Below are positions 1,011 to 28,164 of a stretch of 28,164 nt of DNA, piece by piece. Location of the stretch: contig FMBT01000159.1 of assembly GCA_900095095.1 (NCBI GenBank), positions 1-28,164 of the forward strand. The letters are read 5' to 3'. The notes under the pieces were generated by a model, which had not been told where the DNA came from, did not search any database, and was given only the letters and a program-made list of their open reading frames with translations. A program made the position numbers and the translations under genes. Each line of letters opens with the position of its first letter. Position 1 is the first letter of the stretch. Origin of the DNA: Fragilariopsis cylindrus CCMP1102. Lineage: Eukaryota > Bacillariophyta > Bacillariophyceae > Bacillariales > Bacillariaceae.

Positions 1011-1263
1011 TTTATGGATATATTCTAATAAGATATGGGAATACCGAGAAGGGGGGGGGAGAGAGAAGCATGAATACCTTTTATTTGGTTACATTGTGTA
1101 CGTTGGTGTGGACAAAAATGATGCTGCACTAATAGCTAGCTAGTTATAAACAATAAATCCATTAGGTTGCGACTGAGAATTTATCTCGTCATGTCTTCTG
1201 GTTTGATTGTTGTGATCACTTTCTTTAATTTCGCTGATTCACTAAAACGAAAGTCAATATAAC

Positions 1264-1438
1264 GAAGAGATAGGAAGTGACTAAAAGCTGTTCGTGAAAA
1301 GGATTGCTATGCAATAAAAGATCCTACCAAGCTGGAACTGTGAAAACGTTGGCGAAAGAAGAGGTATGCAGTGAGTAATAAAGAGTCTTGCCAAATTGGA
1401 ACTGTGAAAATGTTGGCGAAAGAAGAGGTAGGAGGTGA
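1264..1438. repeat. Diverged tandem repeat, 48-nt core at 64-nt spacing
   Basis: Copies at 1327-1374 and 1391-1438 share a core reading CCAA(g/a)(c/t)TGGAACTGTGAAAA followed by cGTTGGCGAAAGAAGAGGTA, with few mismatches. The segment at 1264-1289 (GAAGAGATAGGAAGTGACTAAAA) matches the 3' end of the unit and its downstream junction, so a third, truncated copy is likely. Confidence 0.8.
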
Positions 1439-1496
1439 CTAAAATGTTAGTAAAGTCGATTGTGGGAAGGGTTGCTGATTTTTTAGAAGAGGTCTT

Positions 1497-1683
1497 GCCA
1501 AATACGATACACAATGGATTGCGGTATTTTCTACTTTCGTGAAGCAAATCCGCGCTGGCTATGTAAACGGGACTGGGCTTTCTACACGCCAAATTCGATA
1601 CACGATGGATTGCGGTATTTTACTTTCGTGAATTGATGAAGCAAATCCGCGCTGGCTATGTAAACGGGACTGGGCTTTCTACA
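1497..1683. repeat. Tandem duplication of about 93 nt upstream of a secreted-protein gene
   Basis: Copy 1 (1497-1587) and copy 2 (1588-1683) are almost identical: both start GCCAAAT(a/t)CGATACAC, run through ATGGATTGCGGTATTTT, and end GGGACTGGGCTTTCTACA. Copy 2 carries an extra 8 nt next to a short TGAA direct repeat and lacks 2-3 nt in the T run, as expected from replication slippage. High identity means the duplication is recent. Confidence 0.9.
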
Positions 1684-1827
1684 ATTTTTGTCTTCTCTCG
1701 TCCCGTCGCGTAAAAGATAGGGCTCTACAATACTGCATTTTTAAGGTCAAGGAATTTTTAGAAAAAAGTAGAAATCTTTGTCATCTCACAAAATCAAAAA
1801 CCACACAACGAAAAAATATTATTAGTC

Positions 1828-2085
1828 ATGAATTTCAATCTTAAACATCTTGTTCTCTCCATCATAGCCGTCATTTTCATCATGGGAAGTGCAGCGGTAG
1901 CTGATGTAGCTCAACTTCGTGGTGTAGGCCAAGATGCTCATAACTCACGAGTACTCGATGAGAGTAAAGGTGCATTAACTGTAGATGCCAATGGTGCCAT
2001 TCCTTCAGGTCATCCTACATGTCCCCCTCATAATTTGGGGAGCACTTGTGGGCCTATTTTTAGGAGCACTTGCGAGCCTAACTAA
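1828..2085 (+). CDS. Small secreted Cys-containing protein, unknown function
   Basis: An 85-residue frame. Residues 1-25 form a textbook signal peptide (basic NLKH, hydrophobic core LVLSIIAVIFIMG, small residues SAAVA before a likely cut), so the product probably enters the secretory pathway. The mature part is about 60 residues. All its cysteines are in the last 25 residues, where a short motif is repeated imperfectly (GSTCGP then RSTCEP). No family is recognised. The ATG lies in an A-rich context and is the first in the frame; the stop is TAA. It stands alone, downstream of two tandem-repeat blocks. It could be a cell-wall, adhesive or signalling peptide, but nothing in the sequence decides this. 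Confidence 0.6.
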   Translation: MNFNLKHLVLSIIAVIFIMGSAAVADVAQLRGVGQDAHNSRVLDESKGALTVDANGAIPSGHPTCPPHNLGSTCGPIFRSTCEPN

Positions 2086-2704
2086 GGCTGTGAGGAGCGA
2101 AGAGGCAGCTACTTTAATTAAACAATAATTTCTCTAGATTGAAACTCCAACGTGAAGAGTAAATAAGTATGACTAATAAACATTTTGAATCTTCAATAAT
2201 GATGTATCCTTTCTTTAATCATAGTGTTGTTTTATTTAAGGACTATTAGTAAATTACCATATATATATTGAAGCACTTAATTAATGTACTTGTCTTTGTG
2301 CTGTCTAGTAGTAGCCTACTAGTTTCTCAAGATGTTCACGAATAAGAAAAGATGATATGAAGATGATACTAGGAAAACAATAGTACAGTAGAGTGGTAGG
2401 ATGTATTTCAGATATTTTAGTAGATACAGTAGATGTTAAAAAATCTAAATATAGTTATACATACGTAGCAAAAGTACGCCTTCTACCTACTGACAAATAG
2501 TTTCTAAAGATGTATGTATATGATAGTTTTAAACGCTAGATCTAATATGCAATATAAATATAACATTTGTGGATACTGATAGGAGTGTCCTAAAACTAAG
2601 GTTAACGTATGGGTAATATATAATGTAATATGTAATATGTAATATATAATTATTTTCCACCCATAGATTCCCCCCCCCCCCCCCATTTTAACTAGACACA
2701 AAAC
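2086..2704. other. AT-rich gene-free spacer with C15 tract
   Basis: No coding region is evident in 619 bases. The region is AT-rich, with a degenerate TATATAATGTAATATG repeat near 2617-2650 and an uninterrupted run of fifteen C at 2670-2684. That run lies 20 bases before the first ATG of the RGP1-like gene, so it would be in its 5' untranslated or core promoter region. Confidence 0.6.
2670..2684. repeat. C15 homopolymer
   Basis: Fifteen consecutive C bases just upstream of the ATG at 2705. Runs like this vary in length between alleles and between sequencing methods, so the exact count should not be trusted. Confidence 0.9.
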
Positions 2705-10400: not shown

Positions 10401-12439
10401 CTACTGTTTCCCATTCTAAGTCACCATCAAGGGCAAATGGTCTACTTTCAATAGATGATGGAATGAATACCCAAGCTGTACCCATATCGACATACGTTGG
10501 GTACTTAAAAGCTGTTGCTAGTCCGTCTCTGATCATTGGAGCGTTAGCATCATTTCTAGTTGCCGACGGTGCCAAATTCTTTCAGCAATACACGGTCGCT
10601 AAGTGGACAGAATTGGCTGCTGACTCGTCATCATCTATAGCAGCCGCGATGGGAAGTAAATACTTAAGTAACATCGTTTACGCTGCTGGTGTTCTTTCTG
10701 TATTCCTTTGGCTTCGGAGCTTCCTTACGATGCATGTTGGATTACGGGCATCTACTTTCTATCACAACCGAATGCTTTCTTCTGTGTTTCGTGCTCCAAT
10801 GTCATTCTTTGATTCAACCCCATCGGGCCAAATTTTGTCACGTTTTGGCAAGGAGCTAGAGACAGTTGATCGTGCTCTCCCAGAAAGCATTGCGAGCGTT
10901 CTTTTCTGTTCTTACAGATCATGAGCTCTGTCTTGGCGTTATCAGGTGCCATATCTCCTGCTATGATGATACCAATAACATTTGCTGGAGGTATGTATCT
11001 ACGGATAATGAAACGATTCCGTCCAGCCGCTCGTGATATGAAACGAAATGAGCAGCGAACAAGATCACCTATCTTCACACACTTCGGTGAGGCACTTCGT
11101 GGCACAGAAATTATCCGCTCGATACCAGGGGCTAAACGCACGTGGTCAGGTCGACATCGAAAATTAGCAGATGTGAACTTGTCTGTCTTTTCAACCGTCA
11201 AAGCACTCGGTAAGTACAGCTTTTTAGATTTAATACACAGTAATCAACGTCACATTTTTGCCTCTAACACGTAATTCTTTTTCCTCTCCTTCCCGGTTAG
11301 ACCGTTGGCTATCCATAAACTTGGAGGCAATTGGCAACACCATGGTGTTCGTAACATCATTGAGTTGTGTTTTCCTAACAAGGTCTGGCAAGCTTCAATC
11401 TGGTGCGGCAGCTTGGGGACTTACGCAATCTCTGGCCATCACTGGATTGATGGCATGGGCTGTTAGGAATCTTACCATGCTCGAGTCACACATGATGAGT
11501 GTGACACGAGTAAGCGAGTTAACCGATATTGATACTGAGAATGGCAGTAAGGACGATACAAAGAAGAAGTCTGCAATCCCCAGGGAAATGGATAAGGCTG
11601 GCGATGCACTGAAAGTGAATTTTCCCCCAAAACTGAATTTGAGTCCGTCTCCTGTCACAGAAAACGCATTGGTAGCAGATGGTTGGCCATGGCGTGGTGG
11701 AATAGAATTCAAAAAAATATCAATGAGGTACAACCCATCATCACCGTTGGTCTTAAATCAGGTGACATTATCCGTGCCTCCCGGCAGTACTTTGGGAGTC
11801 GTAGGCCGAACAGGTAGTGGAAAGAGCAGTCTGCTTTTATCTCTGTTTCGTATAGTAGAGATCGAATCAGGAGGAAGTATTGAAATCGATGGCGTCGACG
11901 TTCGCTCAGTGTCTATGGAAAGCCTACGTGATAGCATTGCTATCATTCCCCAAGATCCAACTCTCTTCGCTGGGACTTTGGCATTCAACCTTGATGCGAA
12001 AGGCAAGGCCACACCAGAAGATATGTGGAAGGCATTGGAAGCTGCCTCTCCAGACTTAGTTCGACAATTCAAGGCTCTTGGTGGACTCGAGACTGAAATC
12101 AGTGAAGATGGTGGAAATTTGAGTCAAGGCCAGCGGCAATTAATTTGTTTAGCAAGGGCTATGCTCAAGAATAGCAAAATCCTAGTTCTCGATGAAGCGA
12201 CCAGCTCGGTTGATGCACAAACTGATCAACAAGTACAAAATACAATTCGCAAACAATTCGTAGAAAAGGGAGTTTCTGTCATAACAGTTGCGCATCGACT
12301 GGATACTGTCTTGGGATGCGACAAGATTGCTGTGTTAGGTCAAGGTGAGCTTATTGAGTATGATTCTCCGTCTAATTACTTAAGATTAGAAATGGCGAAT
12401 TCCGAAGCCTGGTCGATGCCGACCGAGCAAACAAAATGA
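7450..12439 (+). CDS. ABCC/MRP-type full ABC transporter, frame broken five times
   Basis: Two introns (8548-8669, 11210-11300) and five single missing bases (about 7831-7860, 7971, 8301, 9129-9131, 10902-10905) reconcile into one frame of about 1,593 residues, the usual ABCC size. Order: an N-terminal leader with a hydrophobic segment (MILLFFLAAIG); the ABCC entry motif ASRLVFSYVSPLL then LTEEDAFDL; TMD1; NBD1 with Walker A GSVASGKS, signature LSGGQRARVALARAL and Walker B VFLLDDCLAALD; a long acidic linker; TMD2 with PMSFFDSTPSGQILSRF; NBD2 with Walker A GRTGSGKS, signature LSQGQRQLICLARAML and Walker B ILVLDEATSSVD. NBD1 has DD where NBD2 has DE after Walker B, the asymmetry typical of ABCC proteins. 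Such pumps export or vacuolarise glutathione or organic-anion conjugates; the substrate here is unknown. The 3' end converges on the IDO-fusion gene. Confidence 0.9.
8548..8669 (+). other. Intron 1 of the ABC transporter (122 nt)
   Basis: The donor GTAAGT follows a GGG codon and the acceptor is TTTAG at 8669. Joining the exons at phase 0 gives GSGG-VLNLMQSDA, the conserved 'G..vNLMs.D' motif of ABCC TMD1. Confidence 0.88.
11210..11300 (+). other. Intron 2 of the ABC transporter (91 nt)
   Basis: The donor is GTAAGT at 11210 and the acceptor is GTTAG at 11300. Phase 1 splicing makes a GAC codon and the conserved ABCC segment ALDRWLSINLE in TMD2. Confidence 0.9.
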
Positions 12440-12538: not shown

Positions 12539-15500
12539 CTACTTGTAGCCATCTATGTTCTTGCAGACCATAGACGATTTCCGCCGGGGCAACCTAGACA
12601 GAGATTCCCCCCATCTCTTGACGTCGTCATCATCGTCAGGTGCATGATCAAGCAGCTGTTTAAGGTAAGAAGCAGACTGTTTTGCTCCTTCTGTATCACC
12701 TGAATCTAGTCGCGAGGAAATAGCGGACGATTGGAGCTCGGTTGCAATCTTGACAATTTTGCTTGACTCTGGAGCTGACAAGGCAACTTGAGCGTACCTT
12801 GTGGCCATGTTCCCCAAGACGCTATTTGACATGGCTTGGCGTTTCAAAAATTCAGTAAATGCTTTGAATCTGCGTCAAGCGGTGTTCGCAAACATCTATG
12901 CAAGTTATAAGCGTGAGGATGGAGCTCATAGAATGCCACCGTATGGTCGGGTGTATTCGAATTCATCTTATCGTCTGTTTGGGCCGTCTCCACCATAATA
13001 TCATTTAATTGATGCATAATTTGGTCCCCACCGGGATGGATGGGACTTACATGGTTGAGATCAATGATAGTACCTCCGATTTGACTTAATAAGTTACTGT
13101 CTTTAGTCAATGTTGTGGAACTCCGTAGGATTCGCAGTGTATTCAAAATTCATTCCATTTGATTCAGTGAAAGTTTGCAATGGTATAATTGCACTCTTCA
13201 CTCCGCCGCAGCAATAGGCTAAATTTAACCCATCACTCTTATATGTTTCAAATATCCTGCTTTGAAATGATTCGCATTCAAAGTAGTAGGCAGAAATCTT
13301 TCGTCGTCGTAAAACCGTTGTCTCTTCAAACGCTCCATTACGAATGCTATAGCGCATGGGACAGTTACGTCTACTCCGATCTCCGGAAATATAACCCACA
13401 ACTATGGAGCCAGGGTTCATTGCAGTAAAGTCTAGCCAGGTTTGAGAGTTACACATGAACATGTCTGATGATCTACATTGATGAATAATTGTATATGATC
13501 CTGAACGAGAACCTATCGAGTCGACTAATCCCACAAAGGGCGATATCCCTGTTCCAGAGGCAATGCAGACCAAATTAACATCCTTCGGTGGAACCAAGAA
13601 AAACGTAGCTGGAGAAAACGAGCAATGGACCTTCGTAATTTTTGGGTCACTCATTGCAGAATACCCATGATGGCGAGCCCCGTCATCTGGTTTCGAGACA
13701 AGTAGAAATACTCTATCAAGTTCGACCCCCGACACCGAGTAGACACGGGGAGAGACAGGTTCAAGTGATACAATTTTTTCCTTTGGGATCAGGGGTGGAT
13801 CAGCAAAGATCTGCCCTTTTCTCTTGCTACTCAAATCAAGAGGAGAGTGAACCCAACGCGGCTTATTAGACGACTCATCTCGAATTTTTCCTTGCTCAAT
13901 ATATCGAGCAATCAATTCCAGTGGCACCCCCTCACCACCATTTTTTTCGAATCGAAACCAGCCTAGTGCTTCATACAGCTTATCCCACCCCAACCATTGC
14001 CATTATTTTTGTGCAGTTTTAGCATGTCTTCTAATTTAAAAAACTCTTGCTCCATGCATGCTAACGAATGCAGCCAAGAACTCGTAGGATTGTCACCATT
14101 TGGTAGTAATACTTTCACCACATCGCCATATTCATAGAGCAATCCGGAACCAGATAAATCCAATGCTACTGTTGTAAAGCCTCCCGATTCACTAGTTGAA
14201 TATATAATCTTGACCACCTCGCTCATGAGGGGCGGAAGGCGCAGTACCCATCTTTCATCCGATGCCATCCGCATGTGCTTGAACATCATTGCGGCAAACT
14301 TGTGATTATCGACAGCATTTGATGATTCGTTGGCGGCTGTGCCATGGGACAACCAGAAGTGACATGTTTTGATGATTCATTGCGGGCTGTGACATGGGAC
14401 AACCAGAGGTGACATGTTTTGATGATTCATCGGCGGGCTGTGACATGGGACAACCAGAGGTGACATGTTTCGATGATTCATTGGCGGGCTGTGACATAGG
14501 ACAACCAGAAGCGACATGGTGCTTTTGCCTGGAATCACTCTTTTCATCTTCAGCGAGGTGATTGGTACCGCTCGTTGACGATTGTACATTGTTGTGATGT
14601 ATGAATAAAGTTTACGACTATGCGCTTGTAGCATACCTCCTTCACCAGCGTAGCATTCGATTAAGTGATTGTATGAAGCCAGTAGATCCTTAGGTCGACC
14701 TAGAATATCAAGAATACCTCGAAGTGAAGCAGATTCTGTGAGTTTAGAGAGACAACGAATAAATTCTCTTTGTGGTCTCGGGAAAGTTTCATCGACAGCT
14801 CCTACCGCCTCTACAAGCCCCCTATCCGTAGCTTGATCCTTTCTCTTATATTGATATCGACCCAGCACCCAATCAAGAAGATGAAAATAAGGAAACTGAG
14901 TACCTGTGGTACCCTTCATCGGTTTCGGTTCACCGCCCTTGGTTTTCCGAACGAGAACCCCATTAGAAAGCGGTTGAGTTTGCTTGATGGAAACGTATTT
15001 AGAATTGAAAGTCCTTTTAGCAGGATCGGTAGACATTTGTTGAAATTCTTCTTTACATTTTGATAGGCTAAAGGCAACTTTGTAAAGCAAATCGTATAGT
15101 CGTTGAATTTCGTAATTGTCCGTGGAGGAGTCACCGTCATCATCTGGCATATTGAGTTCGGCCTCCACAACATTTCTCATAGCTGATATTATATCCAATA
15201 TATCAAAGGGCAACGAGGATAGAGCAAAGCCCATACATGCTGGGACTAGTTGATTTATACGTTCGTGATTGTTACCAAAAGCGGGATACAACATCGTGAT
15301 ATTATCCAAATGGAATTCTATATCTTCCTCTACTCCCAGTACTGCATCATAAGACTCTCCGTAGTCAGAGTACCGAAGATTTTCGTCAAGAAATTCTTCT
15401 GCCGAATCATGAACTGTACTGCTTCCGGAGCTCTCTAGACTGACAAATGATACTCTGCGCTTACTTATGTTGTATCCTCCAGCATCTCCTAAGGAAGATG

Positions 15501-16929
15501 AATACTTTTGCTCATCGACCATGGATCGAAAGACTTCAGTGAATCGATAAAACAAGTGCTGAAAGAGAACAAGTGATGTAAAATTATTAGCGACCAAGAT
15601 AAAAATGAACTATAGGGCGCATTATACTCACGATGCAGTCAATTGTAGTTCTTCTATTAGTGTCATCGAACAAATTTTTGTGGAGACATACCTTATCTTT
15701 GAGCAAATGATGTTTCTTTACATGCTTAAAAATATTTAATCGTTGGTTGATTGCTAGAGCAAGTCCTAGACAATCTTTACGGCTTGGTGCGCAATTATTT
15801 TCCATAAGTACATCAATTAATTGACTGCCGACGAAGCACCTTTTGTAGATTCGGAACCCATATCGTCGATCTTTCACTTTGACGTATTTCATCGCATCAA
15901 CGAGGGACATTGTTTCTTGCATGGATGTATGCCTATGTGCAACGATGCGGGAACCAGTATAAGATGATGACAATCGAGCTACGGCCTTCACATTCATCGA
16001 GGAGTTTGAATCGGAATTGTTGGGTTTCGAAGTCGTATTATCACTAGAACGTTGATTGTTGTTGTCGTCGCCATTTTTAGTCTCAGGACCAAAAATAAAG
16101 CTTACGGAACGTTCTTTTCTTCCATCGTTCTCATTGCTTTCATCAATTACATTTTTACTTAATCGGCGTTTTGACAAAGCCGTAGATTTATTCTTAAGCA
16201 CACCTCTCTCTCTTCTTGGGATGTTGATGTTGTTTCGTTGTTTTTCCACATCCAATTTTCTTGTACCATAAAATGACCAGACAAAGTAGGTTCGATTTGT
16301 AGCCGCTTTGCTACCTCAATGAGTGGATCTTCGATCCAGTTAGGTAATTCTGCAGTCTTGGGTCCGTTTGGTGCTGAATTACCGTATAGGTGACTTAATG
16401 TTCCTAATAATAAAAATATACGAGCTGCATCTCGATAATCATGATAATCTTCTTCCAACAAATTAACACACGGTACCGGTTCTTCTTTTACATACAAATG
16501 CAACGGCGTATTTCCATATAGCTGCTCTCCTTCGGGTGGAAGATTCTTAACGAGGTTATAATCAGGTCGTCCGAAATCAGGTCCCTCCTCCATGGCCTCG
16601 TAACATTCGATCGGCCAAAAGAATGTTTTACAGTTTTGTAATTTAATTTCCCAAGGATAGAATTTCCCCTTTAACGGTCCTCCAAGTCCACCAGGAGCTG
16701 TGAAGCCCCATTCACGTGTACAAAAACCGTATGTACCATGACGATGGGTTTGCAACACTGATTGTAGACTACTCTCTATGTCCGCTAAATTGGTAAGAAT
16801 TTTCTGCAACGGATTAGATCTTTTTCTTCTTCTGCTGCTGCTCTCATTGTGGCGATTAGCACCGTCCTTATCCTCATGATCGGTTTTCTTGTCTACTATG
16901 TATTCTTTTGAAGAGGCAATTGCGGTCAT
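12539..16929 (-). CDS. IDO-like haem domain with inserted DEP domain, fused to a P450-reductase-type flavin module and cytochrome b5
   Basis: One gene of about 1,440 residues is obtained with one intron (15559-15631) and seven frame breaks (about 16204-16216, 14523-14526, 14381-14386, 14332-14337, 13984-13986, 13145-13148, 12846-12850). Residues about 130-230 match the IDO N-lobe (ARIFLLLGTLSHLYGNS; PLIEVAKRLQIEPTL then MVQENW). A DEP domain follows (DNA 15662-15904; RRYGFRIYKRCFVGSQLIDV). The IDO C-lobe resumes (LDNITMLYPAF; FPYFHLLDWVLG; PRPQREFIRCL) with proximal haem His at 14620-14622 in AHSRKLYSYI. Then come a 17-residue repeat linker, an FAD domain (YEYGDVVKVLLPNGDNP, RVYSVSG), an NAD(P)H domain (IASGTGISPF, AYCCGG) and cytochrome b5 with haem ligands in HPGG and ELHPHAY. 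The tail is helical and acidic. No flavodoxin domain is present. The haem domain probably gets electrons from NAD(P)H through FAD and b5. No signal peptide is evident. Substrate unknown; the individual families are clear, the single-gene reading is strong but unproven by cDNA. Confidence 0.78.
14321..14522 (-). repeat. Four tandem 50/51-nt units encoding a 17-residue repeat
   Basis: Units run 14321-14370 (50 nt), 14371-14420 (50), 14421-14471 (51) and 14472-14522 (51). In the coding frame the consensus is HVTSGCPMSQPANESSK. The two 50-nt units each lack one C in the CAGCCCGCC part, which breaks the frame; all units still carry NESS after that point. The repeats form a linker between the IDO-like C-lobe and the flavin module. 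The small, polar composition suggests a flexible spacer. Confidence 0.9.
15559..15631 (-). other. Intron in the IDO-fusion gene (73 nt)
   Basis: On the minus strand the donor is GTGAGT (ACTCAC on plus, 15626-15631) and the acceptor is CTTTCAG (ending at 15559). Phase 0 splicing joins the end of the DEP domain (RTTIDCI) to HLFYRFTEVF. The intron lies exactly at the DEP-to-IDO boundary region. Confidence 0.85.
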
Positions 16930-17996
16930 GACAAAATGCGCATGCAGAAATACTTGAGAAGAAAGTAATGTGGAAGGGGGAAGTTGTCATTACAAAATTA
17001 CTGTTTGTAATTCCTGGTACTTGTTACGATGCCGCCAATAAACTGTATTAATAGTAGGTACCAAACACGATCGATTGTTTTGTCGATGTAACACTAGCAG
17101 ATTTTGTTCAATTTTCTCAGAGACTGATGGATGATGACGATGCATTCATTTCTTTTTTCTTAAAACTCGAGGCTTTGCGCGACTCAATACTACGTATCTA
17201 CTTAATAAACACATTTAATTATTAATTGTTAAGTGTAACTGTTTCGAGTCATCATAGTAGTCTCATTTTAGATTTTACTTCTACTTTTTGTTTCGATGAT
17301 TTCGTAGGATCTAAATGAGTATTTTGTACATAACGTATATACTATAGTATATTTTAGAAAACATTTTAGCAAGAATGATGAAGAGATACAGCATCAATTG
17401 ATCAAATTAATCGCTCTTAAGTATTATTTCTACATCGACTCTAACTTCACACATTAGATTGGAGACCCAATTTGTCGGTATTTTCTAAGTTCAGAATGAA
17501 TGCTATGTTTTGTCATCATTGTTTTATTTTTACTCTGCCCATTTTACTGTGCTACGAGTAGTTGTAGGGGGACCTAAGTTAAAGTTGGGTGCTAGATTTT
17601 TTATCTTATTGGTTATAGGATTTGGGATTTGTATCTTGTATTATTATCATTTATACGTTATAATACCTTTTGCGATTTCTAGTGCAGATCTCTATGAATG
17701 ATACGATGATTGGATAATATTTTAGGATTGGTCTATTAAAAAAATTTCAATACTCAAATCTACGTACAATGCTCAATGTGGATATTCTGGTAGGAAAGAT
17801 CTGAATCTTATTCTTTTTAGAGTGTACAAAATACGTAGTCCAAAATATTTTTCTCAACCAGAATATCACTTGATTTTACACCAAAATCTGTAGGAGTATA
17901 CATTATTAAGAAATATCCGTTATAGTGCAAATGAATTCTTATTCAAATAACGATCTGTAGGATGTATACTTGACAATTTCTCAGGTATGATACGGG
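16930..17996. other. AT-rich gene-free spacer (1.07 kb)
   Basis: This lies between the divergent IDO-fusion and membrane-protein genes. It holds an 11-bp perfect inverted repeat (17781-17791 and 17857-17867, GATATTCTGGT / ACCAGAATATC) and an imperfect direct repeat ATCTGTAGGA(g)TGTATAC near 17886 and 17951. A 63-codon frame at 17510-17701 has no family character and is not called. The bases before 17996 (TTTCTCAG) resemble a splice acceptor, so an upstream non-coding exon of the membrane-protein gene is possible. Confidence 0.5.
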
Positions 17997-18848
17997 ATGA
18001 TTATGCTTGCCATGATAATGAAAACATTTGATACCAAGAATGAAGTTGTGCTGATGATATGGATCGGTGTAAAGCTAACTATCTTTTTCAGGAGGAAGTT
18101 CGACTTTATGGAAAATAAAGTGTGCCATCTTCTCAATCCTATGTGGATTGGCGGCATACTAATACTACTTGGCATCAGTAACGAAGATGTCGATTGGATT
18201 CAAATCATGCACAAAGGATTCCTTGTAGTATCTGTCATTTATGATATGTGTTTCTGTCTAGTATCTATAGAGGAAAAGATAAAAGCAGTATTCTTAACTT
18301 TTTCATTGTACCTTGCCATCTTGGGATCAATTACTGTTTTATGTTGGATCTCTACCTGTGTCATTGCAACCATACGGCTATTACGGTGGCCATCTGCGTT
18401 AAAGGTCTATCTGCGAACGCCAAGGACGATATGCGGTCCGAGCTATTCAATTCTTCTCATTGCTGCATGTTATAAAGATTTAGAAGTTGTCATGACAAGC
18501 TTCATTTGGCTACCAACCTTGTTGGAGATTGCATCAGTCTCATCATTTGTTGCAACTATGTTCTTTCGACCCGACAACCATAGCATATACATGTTGCTAT
18601 TGTCTCTGAAACAACGACGACAAACTTTGGTTCCTGACAATGATAATAACAACAACAATAAGAAGAATCATAAGTTTATTCACGCGGGGTTGATGGTATT
18701 AAGTCACATCATGTGTATGATTATCGAGTCTTTTACTATGGAATATGATTATCCCTTTCACTTTCTTGGGATCGTCTCCATTACGATGAGTTCTTTGGGG
18801 CTTTTCTGTGGTACGACTTTTGTGTTAACTCTTTCCAATCATATCTAA
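17997..18848 (+). CDS. Multispanning membrane protein, unknown family
   Basis: A 283-residue frame with seven or eight hydrophobic segments, for example WIGGILILLGI, FLVVSVIYDMCFCLVSI, FSLYLAILGSITVLCWIST, a stretch around SFIWLPTLLEIASVSSFVA, and SITMSSLGLFCGTTFVLTL at the end. A polar loop rich in Asn and Lys (DNDNNNNNKKNHK) separates the last two or three segments. No signature motif of a transporter, receptor or enzyme family is recognised. The start is the first of several Met codons (MIMLAMIM), and a stop lies only two codons upstream of it, so the N-terminus is either here or after an intron ending at the TTTCTCAG before it. The gene converges with the prolyl hydroxylase gene 259 bases downstream. 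Confidence 0.6.
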   Translation: MIMLAMIMKTFDTKNEVVLMIWIGVKLTIFFRRKFDFMENKVCHLLNPMWIGGILILLGISNEDVDWIQIMHKGFLVVSVIYDMCFCLVSIEEKIKAVFLTFSLYLAILGSITVLCWISTCVIATIRLLRWPSALKVYLRTPRTICGPSYSILLIAACYKDLEVVMTSFIWLPTLLEIASVSSFVATMFFRPDNHSIYMLLLSLKQRRQTLVPDNDNNNNNKKNHKFIHAGLMVLSHIMCMIIESFTMEYDYPFHFLGIVSITMSSLGLFCGTTFVLTLSNHI

Positions 18849-19107: not shown

Positions 19108-20690
19108 CTAAGCCTTGTAAGCTGGATCCCAAATCCATAAATTGATAAGCCACTTTTCTCCACGGATAACTGGTTTGGCAGAATGCTGGGAAAAATCATC
19201 CATATTCCCATCTGGCAATTGATCATAGAATAGAATTGCTTTGCCTGCCTCGGGCTTAACCTTTAAGTCATGGAATGTTTTTCCATTGATATATCGAGGA
19301 AATGCTGTTTCGCCTCCAACCAATCCATCATGTTCATCATTTAAATAAAATAAGATCGTAGCGAAACGAGCAGCTTGCATGTTGTCATCAATATGAGAAT
19401 ATCCAAAGTCATGATGAGCTGTATACTCTTGCGTGGGATCATAATGGACCAATTGGAGTGTTTCCGCAATGGATCTCTTGCCATCAAATTCAGGAATTTC
19501 TTCCTCACTACGAGTTCTCATCAATGCTTCGTCGATTCTAGTCAAGTCAGCAGCTCGACGGTAAACAGCATCCAAGATAGGTGACTTTTCTCTTGCAACC
19601 CACGAATTTTTACTAGTCCTAACTTTAGTCTTCCTTTCGACTTTAGTGTCTGGATTTTTACCATTAGAGTTACTTCCCACATCTCCTGTGGTAGATTCAC
19701 TAAGTTTAATCCCTCCCGCAATTTCAATGATATGATCGATTTCCTTTTCCGATAAAAAGTTACGAATTTCAAAGACACGGGGAGCACATGAAAGTACTGT
19801 TAGTGTCATGTTCATAGAATCGTGTGGTACATTATTTTCATCCTTGACACGATAATCTGCAAGAAATCTTGGTTCCGATTCCTTTAAAATTCGTTCTGAA
19901 CCGTTCAAGGTAACACGTCCCAACTCTTCTGAGGGAGGCAATCGGTCAAAGTGTGTCTCCTTGGTTGTTACCCAATGTTCTTGTCCAAAATAATCAGCTC
20001 TCCACATAAAATGATTTGTTGGTGTACGAGGTCCATTGTCATCGAAATTAGAAAGATATGATCGACCAGTAAATGCACTGTATTGTTCATTAAATAGAAG
20101 TGTCTTTGTCCATTTATCGTATCGTGATCGTTCCTTTTCGTTAAGATGCTCTTTAAGATTCTTTTCCGTCTGTATTGGATCATCATCTACAAAGTACGGG
20201 TCAAACACGTATATGTTATCAGGATAATCTCCGACCACGAAAGTGACCAATTGGTTGTCGGGCTCGTCTTTTGGTGTAAAGTAAAATCTGTGTGTGGGGA
20301 AGGTTCCTGTTCCACCAGTAGAGAATGGATCATAATGACGCATCAAATGTGCTGGTCCATTCTTATAACTCTCCCAGTAAAAGTCAACATGACGATTGAC
20401 ATGTTGATGAATTTTCCCGCTAGGCCATTAAATTTTGGTTCTACCCTGCTATACCCACTATCACTTTGATAGAATGTATTGACATCTGGTTGAACGTATG
20501 CCATGAAAGATTTCGGACCGTCACCAACGTCATACGTAAATTCTTTTAATGCTGGATCCTTCTCTTCTGCGTCCAGTAAAGAACAAGTCGGTGACGACAC
20601 CTCCTGCTCTGCTCGTACAACTACATGATGAGGTTGTAGCAGTAACGATGTAGCGTAAATCACGAGGACTAAGAGAACAAACTTTGCCAT
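19108..20690 (-). CDS. Prolyl 4-hydroxylase-type 2-oxoglutarate/Fe(II) oxygenase with N-terminal VHL-like region
   Basis: About 527 residues after restoring one base at the C3 run 20416-20418. I start at ATG 20690 because MAKFVLLVLVIYATSLLL is a normal signal peptide; in-frame ATGs at 20720 and 20747 would only add a polar extension. The C-terminal about 220 residues are the catalytic domain: NFLSEKEIDHII at its start, the iron ligands H and D in EYTAHHDFGYSH, the second His and 2-oxoglutarate-binding Lys in FSQHSAKPVIRGEKW, and a closing LWIWDP. Such enzymes hydroxylate prolines in secreted or wall proteins in the ER. The N-terminal region, spanning the break, reads HVNRHVDFYWESYKNG then THRFYFTP, which resembles the beta domain of VHL (NR..V..xW..f.G and a later GH.w.F strand). 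That similarity is weaker and by eye. Confidence 0.8.
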
Positions 20691-21474
20691 CTTGATATGT
20701 TGAATAGGTAATTGTGACATTGATAGTTGATGTTCAGCATTCAGCAATAATGTGAAGAGACTTTTTTTTCTGGAAAATGACCGTTTTTTGTTTTGAACAC
20801 GACGTAGAACTGAACATTCGACTCGATCGACTAACTAACCATTGATATTTTATAAATAAAACAAGAATGTAAAAACAAAACAAAAAAACACTTTATGATG
20901 TGGGGGTCAGATACGATTCCCCTAATTCTAAGCCACCCAAAACGCATTGACTACGTACAGGGTGTGTGGGTCAGTTATGGAAGGAAATGAAATGATGCCA
21001 TGTGCAGGGGTAAATTTTTTGACTCCTGGCCATGTGGTTGTGTGTATGTCTATTAGGAGTATATGGTTCTAGTTGCAACTAACATACATCACAGCTTAGT
21101 AGTTTGGTGATGGGAAGGGATGGAAGTAGCATTTTTGCACTGGCACTGATGGAAAATGCATCAGTAGCAAACAAGGCAGCTCACCAAGTGGTATTTTTAC
21201 AACGACTGAAGACTGCAGGAGCTACCTGAAATTTGTTGAAGCAACTTCATTATACTGTAGGAGAAACCGTTTATGGTGAACAAAGATCAGAAAAAAATTC
21301 AGATCTCATGTTTGTCCAGAGTAACACACAAATGAGTTTCAATTGACCAAGAAAATAGAATAGAATAAAATGCATCTTTAGGTTCTTATAATGGTTAATT
21401 CTATTTATTTTGACTTTTTTACAGACGAAAAACAACTATGCGAACTCACTCAGGGGTAATAATTCATTACCCGG
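20691..21474. other. Gene-free spacer between P4H and TFB4 genes
   Basis: I see no coding region and no RNA gene in 784 bases. The part next to 20690 is the presumed P4H promoter; it contains a T8 run and CGACTCGATCGACTAACTAAC. The other end is the TFB4 3' flank, with an AT-rich segment near 21345-21420. Confidence 0.6.
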
Positions 21475-22614
21475 CTATGATATTCGTTGTTGTTTATTAT
21501 TTTTGGATATTGTTGGTAACCGAATTTCTGCATCGCATGTTGGACATCTATCAACTGGATTTTTCTTAAAAATACTCAAACATTGATTACAAACGTAGGC
21601 CATGTCTAAAATATCTCCAGTATCAAAACACCGTGCTCGAAAATCGACCTTGTTGATTGCGGGTAGGTTCAGTCGAGATCGGCTCGTACGGGGGGGCAGG
21701 AATACACTCAATAAAACCTCCGTCAATGCCTTATTTGATTGTGCACCACCCTTCGGTACCAACCATAATCCTCCCGTTAAATCACAGGTTTGTTCCAAGT
21801 ATGGGCTAGTCTGGGCGTAATTTGCACTCGCCGGAGCGGGAATGAAACATCCATCAACGACGACGTTCTGTTTCACAGAAGCAAAGCTACAATTCATAAA
21901 TGCGTTATAGTCAGATGGACGATCGTCCGATGCCTGGATTAGAAGGACGCGAGGTGACCATGCTCGGTTTTTATTTCGAGAGGAACTTCTCCCATTGCCA
22001 CTACCATTTCCTCCTAATGCACCGATAACTCCTTCATCATCCCCATTGCCTCGATTCCAAGAATCATTATTTTTCAATGCAGAAATTCCAGCATTAGATG
22101 CAACTAAAAATCGATTAATTATGCAAAGGGACATAGAAAAAGCAGATGCCATGGCCGCAAGAGAATCTGTAAGGGGTTGATTGTCTTTGTTGTTGTTTTT
22201 CGTCGTTGATTGCTTCGTAGCTGCCCTCGACACCAGTTCTGCTACACCTTCAATTAGATCACTTTGAATCTTTCTACTGTCGAGTTTATTTTCTGGATTA
22301 GAAAAATAATTTTCAAGATCATCCTTGCGTGGATGGACTACGGCCACCTCACTCCCTGCCACTGCAACTAATATCAATGCCGAGTCTCTTTCGAGGCTGG
22401 AAAATGCTGATGCAAATGCCTGCACACCTGATAGTAGCTCCTGTAATGTTGCTGGACCGACGCTACCTTTTCCGGCGGCTTTTCTTGCCTTGTCGGAGGC
22501 TGTTCGCTGTAGTTCCCGATGCCCCCATGTAACCGGAGACACATCAACGACTAAGATAGTCAATGATCTTTCGCCTGATTGTTTCATCGGTGATGATGTA
22601 GATTGTAGCAACAA
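21475..22614 (-). CDS. TFB4: TFIIH core subunit TFB4/p34 (GTF2H3)
   Basis: A complete 379-residue frame with no breaks. It has the p34 plan: an N-terminal von Willebrand A-like fold beginning SLTILVVDVSPVTWG (family: a hydrophobic strand with D.NP..W), a central RVLLIQASDDRPSDYNAFMN, then VVVDGCFIPAP, followed by YLEQTCDLTGGLW (matches the conserved 'yLqQasdiTgG.Yl'), LLSVFLPP and VDFRARCFDTGDILDMAYVC. A zinc-binding motif CNQCLSIF..CPTC ends the domain. p34 binds p44 in the TFIIH core and serves in transcription initiation and nucleotide excision repair in the nucleus. An insertion rich in Asn, Gly and Ser (about residues 185-215) is extra compared with the animal protein. The gene has the same orientation as the polyamine oxidase gene upstream of it. 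Confidence 0.92.
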   Translation of the reverse strand: MLLQSTSSPMKQSGERSLTILVVDVSPVTWGHRELQRTASDKARKAAGKGSVGPATLQELLSGVQAFASAFSSLERDSALILVAVAGSEVAVVHPRKDDLENYFSNPENKLDSRKIQSDLIEGVAELVSRAATKQSTTKNNNKDNQPLTDSLAAMASAFSMSLCIINRFLVASNAGISALKNNDSWNRGNGDDEGVIGALGGNGSGNGRSSSRNKNRAWSPRVLLIQASDDRPSDYNAFMNCSFASVKQNVVVDGCFIPAPASANYAQTSPYLEQTCDLTGGLWLVPKGGAQSNKALTEVLLSVFLPPRTSRSRLNLPAINKVDFRARCFDTGDILDMAYVCNQCLSIFKKNPVDRCPTCDAEIRLPTISKNNKQQRIS

Positions 22615-23125
22615 ACAAGAATATTGTGCTTGGATTTACTGTGTAACATCAAACATCAAACTTCAAACAACAAACTTCATAATCTCGTCTGATTTCTCAA
22701 AAATTCATCACGAACAAAAGGGGTTTTGGTCACCCCCACATTCAAGTAAACCCCAAATCCACCTTCCCCTTCCCTGAATCAATCCATTCGTCCCTATTCT
22801 AATACTAGTAGTACTAATAGTACACTGTATTATTAATACTTGAAAAGGGGTACTGTACTACCAGTATTGGCTATCACATTGAATATAATGTTGCTGCATA
22901 TGAAATTCAATTCAGCTAGCACCTCAATAATTCACTGATATCAAACATAGGAACTACCAAAATACACAATTTTCTTAGTGGAACGCATCAGTGACCCCAT
23001 ATTGCCTTTTATGTGTAATTCTCTGATAATATTATATCTGAAAGGAAGTACCATTACGATCCATTGGAAATAATGAGGCAGCAAATATTTGAATTTATTT
23101 TCACACTAGCTAGAAGAAAATTCAA
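22615..23125. other. Gene-free spacer, TFB4 promoter region
   Basis: These 511 bases hold no coding region. They contain a near-perfect inverted repeat with 14-nt arms (22801-22814 and 22855-22868) and a TACACTGTA word at 22821-22829 inside its loop. The stretch next to 22614 has short ATCAAAC/TTCAAAC-type repeats. Confidence 0.55.
22801..22868. promoter_or_regulatory. Imperfect inverted repeat (14-nt arms, 40-nt loop) upstream of TFB4
   Basis: AATACTAGTAGTAC is matched by GTACTACCAGTATT with one mismatch. It lies about 190-250 bases upstream of the TFB4 start codon. It could form a stem or bind a dimeric factor; no function can be shown. Confidence 0.4.
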
Positions 23126-25080
23126 CTACATATTAAGTAAGCTTAAAACATCTGCTGCTGCTCGATTTCCACTTATCAACGCACCATGAACACTCCCCAT
23201 ATGATCAATCTCAGTAGCTTCACCGGCAAACAGCAAACGTCCATCCCATTCTGAAGATTGGAGTACACCAACATGTTGGTCAGTTGTCCCTAAACGGAAT
23301 GTCGAATACGACCCTCTTGTATGCATATCTTCCTCCCATCTAGTAACGTGGAAATCTGTGCAGGAAGATGAGAGATCGTTGAGACCCATAGAAGCCTCCA
23401 AAAATTCGATCACTGCTTGTTGTATAATTTCGTTACTTTTTTCAAAGCACCACACACCTAAATTTCCACACAAAATTGCCTCAATGCATGGTATATTATT
23501 TCGAGCCCAGAGATTGTTCAAGAGGAGATGGCATCCTGGTAAAACGGAAGTTAATTTCGATGACCTATCCGGTTGCTGCCGTCGTCGTCGTGGTTTATTC
23601 CGGATAAGACCAATCATTGGTGGTTCTTTTGGCCAAAATATATGATCAAACGTTAGGAATACTTTTCTATACGAACCAGAACAAATGGATTGATAGCATT
23701 TATTTTTTCATCACAAAGTCTTGGTTGAAAGAATGACGTATCGGTTTTTGCTATTACATGTTGCAAGCATCCCAACGGTATAGTGCAGACGCAACATTTT
23801 GCTTCGATAATTTTCCCTGATGCCATCTCAATCCGGACATAATTCTTTTTATCAACAATCGAAATTACCTCTTCTTTTAGGCGTATAATATTGTGGTCGT
23901 CACCATCGTCATTTTGATGCCGCTCTATAATTTTTATCAATGGTTCTAAGACTGTAATCATTCCTTCCCTTACTTTACAATGAGGACCAGAAAAATCTCC
24001 TGCACCATCGTGATGTTTATCGATATCCATAAAAGTCACACCGTTTCTTTCTATTTCTTTTTTCTCCTCTTCCTCCTTTTTATGTTCGTAGCTGTCTTCG
24101 TTGCCGTCTACTTCTTCGTTGTCACCGTTGTCTTGTTGCTCTGGCAAAAATAACTCCACAAGCTGTTCTACACTCGTATCCTTCATGGAGGCACCATTCC
24201 AGTTTTCGATCAAGAATAGATAGAAAGACGCCAGTAAATTCACAAGAACCTTATCATCCTCTTTATTATTATTATTATTATTCGTCGGAACAGTATCATT
24301 CTTCTCCATATTATCACTGATTCCGCCTTTGTTGGTATCGATTACGTCCATAATATCTAAATGTGCTGCGCCTGCCACAATTGATGCGGACGCGTCCTTT
24401 GTTTGTTTACTTAGTTTGTCATTATTTGTGCCTAGCAGAGTACTGTTCAACCGCTTGTATATTTGGTCGACGCTCAATTCAACAACAGATGTTGGCGATA
24501 ATGCTGATACCTCCTCATCGCTGAGTAGGTTATGAACATTATGTTCGCTCCCATAATTTTGCGTGATGATTTCGAGAAATCTATAATGTCGTCGTAGGGC
24601 TTGCGATATCAGTGTCGATGATACTGGCAGCGATTCGTCGTCGACAATTGATCCGTTTACAAAAAACGATATCAAGCTTTTCCTTGCTCTCTCATCATCG
24701 CCGTTATTATGATGCAGCACTGTATTCGGTCGTATCCAAGGATTTCCTTCAAAGATAGGATCGAGTGACTTCAACACGGGCGTCTTACACTCTTCAAGAA
24801 GTTTTACCATAGGATTATCGTCGCTTGCTCCGTGAACCCAAGAGGCTCCGAGATCTCTGCGGAATGAAACTTTATTGTTGGATCCACCATTGTCATCAGC
24901 AGTAACAACGTCAACCGTCTCGTGTCGAGTGTGAATTCTACCGCCAATTCGATCTCTTGCCTCGACAACGACAACGTCAACGTCAGGATGCTCGATAAGA
25001 CGAGCGCAACATTGTAGTCCACTTGCTCCCGCGCCGATTATTACACAGTCAAACATGTGGCAAACTGCATATGAGGTCAA
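23126..25080 (-). CDS. FAD-dependent amine oxidase, polyamine oxidase-like
   Basis: About 651 residues after adding one A at the run 23663-23666. The N-terminus has the Rossmann fingerprint CVIIGAGASGLQCCARL, then VVVEARDRIGGRIHT and LGASWVHG, the GG and substrate-entry motifs of the MAO/PAO/LSD1 family. The C-terminus has the second FAD motif RLLFAGEATEIDHMGSVHGA, then LISGNRAAADVL. The middle reads VREGMITVLEPLI, VCTIPLGCLQHV and, across the break, RIEKVFLTFDHIFWP; that Lys is the flavin-site lysine expected in amine oxidases, and it sits exactly at the break. Such enzymes oxidise spermine or spermidine at a secondary amine and release H2O2. Two low-complexity insertions are present (NNNNNNKEDD and a run rich in Glu, Asp and Lys). 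No leader is seen, so cytosolic or peroxisomal; the C-terminus LLNM is not a clear PTS1. A histone demethylase is less likely as no SWIRM domain is present. Confidence 0.85.
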
Positions 25081-25593
25081 TAACCCTCCATATTTCCTCC
25101 GATTCGATGATTGGATTCGATTCTATATCACACACAAAAATTGACGACAGAAACCTTGAAATTATATACACTGTACACTGTATGGGAATTCTCGCGCGCT
25201 ATTACTGCAGGACATGTTCACCCTACCAGAGTACGGTGAAGTTTGTGGATTTAAACATTATTTTCATATGATACAGTACTGTATATAAACTTATAATCTG
25301 CTAGAAGCAGTATAATATTTCTAAATGGCAATTATTATCAAGCCTAGACAAAAATATTTCTATTGTTTGAGAAAGCTAAGTCTTGAGATTTTTATTTTCT
25401 TCAAATACTTTCGTATCTATATCTCACTCTCATATAATTCGTATCAGAATAAAAAAGGAAAGGAAACAAAGTTGGTTTCCTAATTTTGGAATACAAACTA
25501 TTTACAATATTGTTTGTTGATGCAATCCCTTATAGCTCAACAATAGAAGGAGATAGTAAACATTGTCCGCTTCTAGTCCCCATGTTTTGGTGC
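25081..25593. other. Gene-free spacer, polyamine oxidase promoter and SMC5 3' flank
   Basis: No coding region in 513 bases. Two overlapping TACACTGTA words lie at 25167-25182 and a perfect 14-bp palindrome at 25271-25284, roughly 90 and 190 bases upstream of the polyamine oxidase ATG. The remainder is AT-rich. Confidence 0.6.
25271..25284. promoter_or_regulatory. Perfect palindrome ATACAGTACTGTAT
   Basis: The 14 bases equal their reverse complement and lie about 190 bases upstream of the polyamine oxidase start. A binding site for a dimeric factor is possible but only inferred. Confidence 0.35.
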
Positions 25594-28164
25594 CTAGTTT
25601 TTGGTTTGATCCTCCTCCTCCAACTCATCATCGACATTAGATTCCTCTCGACGACGCTTTCTTGTGGCAATGAGATCTTTGGTGGACCAGTCTTGTGGGT
25701 TCTTAAGGTTGTATGGACCATTGAAAATGAAGAGGACGTTCATCGCTTCGACTTCCATGTCCGTAAGATTAGGAAGGAGTTTCGGTGTAATCAGCCAATA
25801 TTGTCCACAATGATCTGTTGGTCCATTTGCTCCCGGAGGTTTTGTTGAGTTTTCAACAATCCTCTTAAAGACCAAACGTTCATTTCGATCATCCAAACCT
25901 TGGTTGATCTCGTCTACGCACCGGAAGGGAGCACACATCATATCTTGCATGGCCATCAAGTACATGATGGTAGAAACTGACCGCTCACCACCTGATTGAA
26001 CTTGGGCTGATAGCACTGACGGTGGGACATTCTCACGAAAGGAGACCCTGATCTCAACGCCCCATTCTTCGAAGCTAGATTCCTCATTATCATTACTGTT
26101 CTCATCTCCTGATTTTCCCTTTCTCAAACGGACCTCTCCCTTGCAACCAAGCTCCCTCATATAATTGCCAAAACGCTTGTCAATTGTAGTGACAATCTCG
26201 TCAAGGGACAATTCCCATGGCTTTTTTTTAAGATTTAATTCATCTATTTTTTTCTCTTTCCTGTTGGTCATATCATCAAGATCTCCTCTTGTTTCCTCGA
26301 GCTCTTTTTTCTTTTCTTCGTACAGACGTACGACGTTCGGATCCGAGTGGATGTTGTTGACCTTCGCCTCTGCATCTTCAAGTGCAGCCTCAGCATGATC
26401 AACTGTTTGAAATTGGTGCAAGTCAACCTCTAGTACCTTCATAAGAGGCAAATCGTTTCCATCTTCGTCTTCGATTGGTGCCTCTTTCATAGCGATAGCT
26501 CTCGATGTCTTATAAAGAATCTTTGCGGCCTTAAGATCACGTTTGATTCTAAGACATTCTTGCCTTTTCCCATCATGTTCGTCTGTGGCCAATATCACTT
26601 TTTCTCTATTGAATACGTACGAACCGGAAAAATCAAAAGGGTGAGACTTTCGTATATAAATAACTTACAATATCAAATATTCTTTGGACGCAATATACGA
26701 TATTTAAAGTAGAATAAAATAAAAGAGAACGAAACAAAAACAAAAACATACCTACTGGTTCTTTCCTCGACCACAGCAAGTTCCTTGTTCAATCGCGCAC
26801 CGGATGCTTTCACCGTCGCTTCCATCACCTTATTGTAGCTTTCAGAGTGAGCATTCATAGCCTTTAGTGATACAATGGCGCGCTTTTTTAAATCACCAAC
26901 CAGTTCTTTCTTTTGCTCATCATCATCAGTATCTAATTTTTCCTCAGTTTCACTTAGCTTGCGCTGAAGTTCTTTAATTTTCTGTGTACCTGTTGAATCC
27001 TATGACAATCCGCCTTGGTATCCTTAACTCGTTGTTGTGAGTTTTGACTTTCTATTAGAAGCTCCTGTTGTTCACGGTCAACCCGTTGGATGTCTGGTGT
27101 AATCTTGTTCTTACGGTCTTCTAGTTCTTGCATTTTCTGGGTCAATTCCTGCTTCGCGACGTCATTGTTCCCTCCTTTTGTCAGTATCTTTGAAGGTCTG
27201 ATGTCATCGACACGAAGTGATGGTTTTCCGGAATAACGAGAAATCTGTGAAGTGTACTTGAACGACTTTCCTTGCTTGCTGGCGAAAATACAATATCCTA
27301 AGAGGCGATTTCCCTGATTTTCAGACTCTGAAAGAATGTTGCCCAAGTCTCTATCGTCCAAACTGTCCTGAGTATCATCGTTTCCAACCAAAACTTTATG
27401 GATATTTGAACTCGACTTTAGCGCTTCGATAACGACCTCTGGCCCTTCAAACGATTCGTCCAAATACCCGACAATACCATGATCTTGTTTGAGCATAGCC
27501 ATCTTTTGATCTGAATGTGGTCGAGGTTCGGCTTGGTCAATACGATCGATTTGAATAATATTAATGGCGATCTTTTTCTCTTTTCGAACTTTCTGATATA
27601 GTAATCGTAATCGACTTGTCTTGCACAACGAAAGATTTTAGCGTGTTGTTTGAAATGTGCTGTTCTAAATATGCCGCAGCGTTGTTTGACTTGGGTGAAA
27701 TCTCACAAGCAATGGGACCAATAACTTCCTTTCGAAATAAATTTCGATTGTTATGAATCCAGTAGTATGCATCTTTGACTTCCCTGAATTGTCTCAGAAC
27801 GTGATTACGTCGTTGCTCCTTTTCATCCTGAAGTCTATCTAGCCTTCTTTTCGCATTGGTCCATTCGTCCTCCACAGATAATACTTTATGCTGAAGTTCT
27901 TGTAATTCGGCTTTCTTATCTTGGTACCTTGGAAGATTATTCTTTTGGTCTTCTTTTGCTTGACGAAACGCCTCTTCTAGGTCTTCTATGGAAGGGCTCG
28001 TATTCAAGGCGTTCTGAATATCTTCGACCTTAGTACGATAATCTTCTGCCTTTCTTTCCGTGTTTAAACGATTGGTATCAATACCTGTGATATCTATTAG
28101 AATCTCTTCGATTCTGTCATCGTGTTGTTGGTATTTTGCCTCTTCCTTCTTCATATCGTTTTTT
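25594..28164 (-). CDS. SMC5: SMC5, Smc5/6 complex ATPase (5' partial: hinge to C-terminus)
   Basis: The frame is open at the right edge, so the N-terminal ATPase half (Walker A) and first coiled coil start are outside. Seen in order: a coiled coil; the SMC5 hinge (AYYWIHNNRNLFRKEVIGPI, NTLKSFVVQDKS, then GIVGYLDESFEGPEVVIEAL and IHKVLVGN); a returning coiled coil; and the C-terminal ATPase head with signature VQSGGERSVSTIMYLMAM and Walker B FRCVDEINQGLDDRNER, closing QYWLITPKLLPNL. The NQG motif after Walker B is diagnostic for SMC5 within the SMC family. One intron (26606-26751) and two small breaks (about 27610-27625, where two bases are missing or one is extra, and near 27003) are crossed. 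SMC5 pairs with SMC6 in recombination repair and replication-fork maintenance. The C-terminal tail is basic then acidic (KRRREESNVDDELEEED). Confidence 0.92.
26606..26751 (-). other. Intron in SMC5 (146 nt)
   Basis: On the minus strand the donor is GTATGT (26751 downward) and the acceptor is CAATAG (ending 26606). Joining AG with A gives an Arg codon and a continuous coiled coil EERTSR-EKVILATDEHDG. The intron interior is T-rich and has stops in all useful frames. Confidence 0.8.

Follow-up and report, generated by a model that had tools for sequence, protein, structure and literature searches.

A diatom gene that appears to join an IDO-type fold, most likely without its haem histidine, to a flavin reductase

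Results

On balance, one diatom gene appears to encode an indoleamine 2,3-dioxygenase (IDO)-type two-lobed fold split by a DEP domain, followed by a repeat linker, a CPR/FNR-type reductase without an FMN part, and an HPGG-bearing stretch. As judged from sequence comparison, the IDO-type part lacks the haem histidine and would be a module other than a dioxygenase. That the IDO-like fold and the flavin reductase belong to a single gene is supported by three observations: the frame is open and coding-like, the repeat linker is in phase, and all six substitutions between two copies of the gene are synonymous. The architecture of the fusion protein is unusual.

The window analysed here is contig C387 in full (28,164 bases), part of a 67.9-Mb genome assembled in 818 contigs. 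Encoded on the minus strand, the gene starts with an ATG at 16929, reaches its stop codon at 12539, and is tiled by eight ORFs of at least 100 codons each. The encoded order is IDO-like N-lobe, linker, DEP domain, IDO-like C-lobe, linker of 51-bp repeats, CPR/FNR-type FAD section, NAD(P)H section, HPGG stretch, and tail, giving a product of ~1,440 residues. A 73-bp GT-AG intron (GTGAGT...TTCAG; 15559..15631, minus strand), read from the sequence, joins ORF o2 to ORF o3 in phase. The stretch upstream of the gene is AT-rich (GC 0.31 at 17001-18000), and downstream an ABC-transporter gene on the other strand ends at 12439.

By hexamer coding scores, trained on long ORFs (300 codons or more; n = 42) in 200 kb of contig C706, a single minus-strand frame was open and top-scoring almost everywhere between 16929 and 12540, switching at each frame break. 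Scores were weak or negative at 15840-15900 (inside the DEP domain), at 14940-15000, at 13560-13680, and around the breaks; because of this patchiness, the open frame supports coding but falls short of proof. A crude segmentation yielded 11 frame switches for the gene: the intron accounts for one, the breaks for six (with the pair in the repeat array counted once), and two brief excursions for the other four. It additionally assigned a short piece at 13494-13659 to the opposite strand as coding. No stop-rich gap was found between the IDO-like and flavin parts, the minus-strand frame being open throughout with its switches. The first-pass annotation had described a single gene direction without a stop-separated gene boundary, and both statements held: all parts lie on the minus strand, and the frame runs open with switches, coding scores being weak in places.

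IDO family homology was detected over both lobes. The N-lobe (ORF o1, starting at ATG 16929; 16204..16929, minus strand), with mostly positive coding potential, matched the IDO family profile PF01231 at 26.7 bits over residues 91-236. Joining it to the C-lobe (14578..15378, minus strand) without the DEP part raised this score to 43.7 bits against a cut-off of 26, covering profile positions 30-339 of 412, which bears out the IDO-like lobes noted earlier. The full joined protein scored 39.5 bits. The C-lobe ORF alone gave no PF01231 match; adding the final 32 N-lobe residues brought it to 29.9 bits. The genome search with PF01231 listed this locus only; it missed the second copy described below, so the listing is incomplete.

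For comparison, bacterial IDOs were taken from a PF01231 search of 398 genomes, in which seven genomes had a match at E 0.001 and six were over the cut-off; six bacterial IDO sequences were used, two of which (L054 and L055) are near-identical. Aligned globally to a profile of these six, the C-lobe gave a z of 5.1, with none of 300 shuffles scoring as high; the gap setting used places Asp at the histidine column. With HMMER and the same profile, the joined lobes scored just 12.3 bits and the C-lobe ORF −1.1. Single-sequence PDB searches returned IDO1 at E 0.16 or worse. The structure prediction for the C-lobe failed, at a mean pLDDT of 46. In a Foldseek search of this model, IDO1 and IDO2 chains came out on top (best E 0.11); we gave the result no weight, because no match reached E 0.001 and bacterial IDOs had served as guides for the model. 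When prokaryote genomes were scanned for a DNA pattern of the IDO motif, 14 stretches came up; none of them was an IDO gene when the translations were read, and in six of these genomes no PF01231 match was found. Searches of viral contigs with three of the ORFs as queries found no relative.

In IDO, which converts L-tryptophan to N-formylkynurenine, the proximal histidine is the ligand of the haem iron. At the corresponding column the window carries a Gln codon (CAA; 14770..14772, minus strand), as aligned by MAFFT with the six bacterial IDOs, and the same letters are present in C706. In this alignment, bacterial P-x-x-H-R-x-F-I stands against P-R-P-Q-R-E-F-I of the window. Shortened Pfam queries placed both His305 of L053 and the window Gln at column 304, provided that the last 7-8 residues are ungapped. 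Spacing gave a further measure: counted from the first G of G-x-TG-x-QSS, the histidine is at +40 in all six bacterial IDOs, and in the window histidines follow the matching G only at 10, 82, and 97 residues, with none near the expected 40. A cruder pairwise profile alignment put Asp at the histidine column in four of five gap settings, Gln in one, and His in none. Ungapped motif scans ranked the Gln site first in all three windows scanned, yet not above shuffles (476, 323, and 69 of 1000). Semi-global alignment at six gap settings produced a meaningless end match and was discarded. From these alignments, the proximal haem histidine has most likely been replaced by Gln. With Gln at this column and no histidine at the matching distance, a self-sufficient haem dioxygenase is not supported.

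The DEP domain between the lobes (15692..15883, minus strand) matched PF00610 at 40.7 bits (cut-off 32.7; E 2.3e-10; residues 145-208 of the minus-strand stretch 15590-16315). A linker rich in Ser, Asn, and Asp precedes it at about 15884-16200. A 63-bp piece of this linker (window about 16058-16120) has a 92% identical copy at C91:536364-536423, close to an apparent ABC-transporter gene start as read by eye. After the C-lobe, Tandem Repeats Finder identified a 51-bp (17-codon) repeat in ~4 copies (14318..14518, minus strand), which forms the linker SGCPMSQPANESSKHVT and holds two frame breaks.

Next in the gene comes the first FAD-binding section of a putative CPR-type reductase (ORF o5; 13985..14330, minus strand; FAD_binding_1, E 0.028), with Met codons near the start of the ORF. 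It is followed by the remaining FAD section and the NAD(P)H section (ORF o6; 13112..13984, minus strand; NAD_binding_1, E 0.023, or E 0.0044 on the shorter piece 13106-13567). The strings on which a CPR-type FAD/NAD(P)H reductase had been proposed, RVYSVSG (13727-13747), GTGISPF (13535-13555), and YCCGG (13202-13216), are all present; the FAD_binding_1 and NAD_binding_1 matches all fell below their Pfam cut-offs. Against the PDB, the joined reductase matched methionine synthase reductase (2qtl) at E 0.015, a chain named cytochrome P450 monooxygenase at E 0.2, and CPR at E 0.45. The order of FAD before NAD(P)H was correct in both Pfam and PDB matches. Just some tens of residues separate the repeat linker from the FAD section, too few for a flavodoxin domain.

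The HPGG-bearing stretch (12880..13116, minus strand; HPGG codons at 13027-13038) may be a degenerate cytochrome b5-like piece, as suggested by the motif only. Cytochrome b5 holds its haem by two axial histidines. The His of HPGG is present as a candidate for the first; the second cannot be picked out, because the tail does not align with two b5s of the same genome. PF00173 did not match the stretch at E 10 (a b5 of the same genome, L006, scores 92.5 bits), the stretch was absent from the 34 PF00173 matches in the genome, and its seven PDB matches included no b5. Structure prediction for this stretch also failed (mean pLDDT 34). The cytochrome b5 domain of the first-pass annotation is thus reduced to its HPGG string. 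The C-terminal tail with the stop codon (ORF o8; 12539..12869, minus strand) showed positive coding potential at 12660-12780 and matched no family above cut-off.

Seven gap-free frame breaks occur in the gene: the repeat array (14318-14518) contains two of them, and the other five are near 16213, 14560, 13978, 13129, and 12867. A second copy of the gene, which may be an allele or a recent duplicate, is located at C706:18083-22530, and within the gene the copies differ by six substitutions and two one-base indels. In the proposed frames, none of the six substitutions changes an amino acid (the per-type chances multiply to 7e-4); the one in the linker, at 14477, is silent when read in the frame of the linker and changes the amino acid in the other open frame. 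Most of the frame breaks of this gene are common to both copies. At window 19108-28163, breaks in three conserved neighbouring genes differ between copies: the amine oxidase is split into 193 and 489 codons in the window but is a single 665-codon ORF in C706, the 2OG oxygenase comprises two ORFs against three, and the SMC-like gene four against three. Genes from this assembly therefore need polishing. On C706, 199 gap-free switches were counted in 151 kb called coding, a number that also takes in short introns and false calls. Matches to the silicon transporter family PF03842 numbered 27 stretches in the genome (best 757 bits), in keeping with a diatom, and on three contigs they adjoin in different frames. 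Given the six synonymous substitutions and the breaks of neighbouring genes that differ between copies, assembly errors probably account for most frame breaks, although the two copies have the majority of this gene's breaks in common.

Two local repairs were considered and rejected. An intron with the donor GTACAAG as the cause of the first frame break would delete the conserved ENW of the N-lobe; this rejection covers that donor alone. The extra C706 base at window 13113 shifts the frame only part of the way needed to mend the break ahead of HPGG.

Elsewhere on the contig, ~1.2 kb of the window (1262-2481) has no match in the second copy, in which the flanking parts abut at C706 8007/8008, a presence/absence difference. 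This stretch includes a 97-bp imperfect tandem duplication (window 1497-1683; two copies, 88% matches).

Discussion

In the mechanism that we propose, FAD in the CPR/FNR-type part would be reduced by NAD(P)H, and the electron would then pass to the C-terminal HPGG stretch or to an external acceptor protein. The lobes of IDO type would no longer act as a tryptophan dioxygenase and may instead serve as a binding, sensing, or docking module, and the DEP domain may bring the protein to a membrane or a partner. This reading draws on a single species, and the role given to the IDO-like part is inferred.

The same locus can be read in other ways. It had been annotated as a fused, self-sufficient enzyme, with the haem of an IDO domain receiving its electrons from NAD(P)H, FAD, and b5 within the same chain. 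Gene order and PF01231 homology agree with this, as does the ability of b5 with P450 reductase to reduce IDO1 in cells. Our analysis supports the fusion itself, of IDO-like lobes with a flavin reductase. It does not support the function: Gln stands at the proximal histidine column with no histidine at the matching distance, and b5, unsupported by any profile used, is present by motif alone. We regard a self-sufficient IDO as very unlikely. An IDO-type fold that works as a new redox module, fed by its own NAD(P)H-FAD reductase and binding cofactor or substrate without the proximal histidine, is unlikely too; in such a module another residue might hold the haem, for example, or the chemistry might be flavin-only.

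The frame breaks bear on two further readings. Two head-to-tail genes, one for IDO-DEP and one for the reductase, could look fused through assembly errors, and the Met codons near the start of ORF o5, together with the position of three of the seven breaks in or just before the repeat linker, would suit such a boundary. Against it, the parts are not separated by a stop-rich non-coding gap, the 17-codon repeat is in phase with both sides apart from slips, and the substitution at 14477 is silent when read with the linker but alters the residue in the alternative open frame. Two genes seem rather improbable. If the breaks were instead real mutations, the gene would be a decaying pseudogene, to which the sharing of most breaks by both copies and the loss of the haem histidine would both be suited. 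This is quite unlikely in view of the six synonymous substitutions out of six, the general frequency of frame switches in the assembly (as counted on C706, short introns and false calls included), the amine oxidase that is broken in the window and whole in C706, and the silicon transporter matches that change frame where they adjoin. A single fused gene with an IDO-type part that is not a dioxygenase is the reading we prefer.

Known systems resemble parts of this protein. Like CPR and methionine synthase reductase, to which it has weak PDB matches, its reductase carries FAD and NAD(P)H motifs in the same order; it differs in having no FMN/flavodoxin part and in scoring below curated cut-offs. 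The GGTIIDL ahead of HPGG resembles the start of the cytochrome b5 (PF00173) core, whereas a profile match and the AGDDAT...H stretch of the two b5s of the same genome are both missing. Self-sufficient P450s and NO synthases are oxygenases fused to their own NAD(P)H reductase. The coding region described here likewise combines an oxygenase-type fold with an NAD(P)H reductase-like part of its own, but the fold is of IDO type without the haem histidine, there is no FMN domain, and a DEP domain is inserted.

With the IDO family (PF01231) the encoded protein shares two-lobed homology over profile positions 30-339 of 412 and the G-x-x-G-x-Q motif, kept as GTTGTQ. It departs from the family in the Gln at the proximal histidine column, the DEP insert between the lobes, the fused reductase, and an identity of 18-23% to four bacterial IDOs in the aligned C-lobe. 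The case also shows that function can be overestimated when it is read from motifs by themselves: a single Gln codon takes away the basis of the chemistry first proposed. Should other diatoms share this architecture, it would represent an IDO-type fold physically linked to a reductase and interrupted by a DEP domain, and nature would have provided an experiment on the capacities of the fold in the absence of its haem ligand. Among the bacterial sequences, a 420-codon open frame (L059, genome G246) matched PF01231 over profile positions 252-372 only, at 22 bits and below the cut-off, and may encode a distant IDO-like protein.
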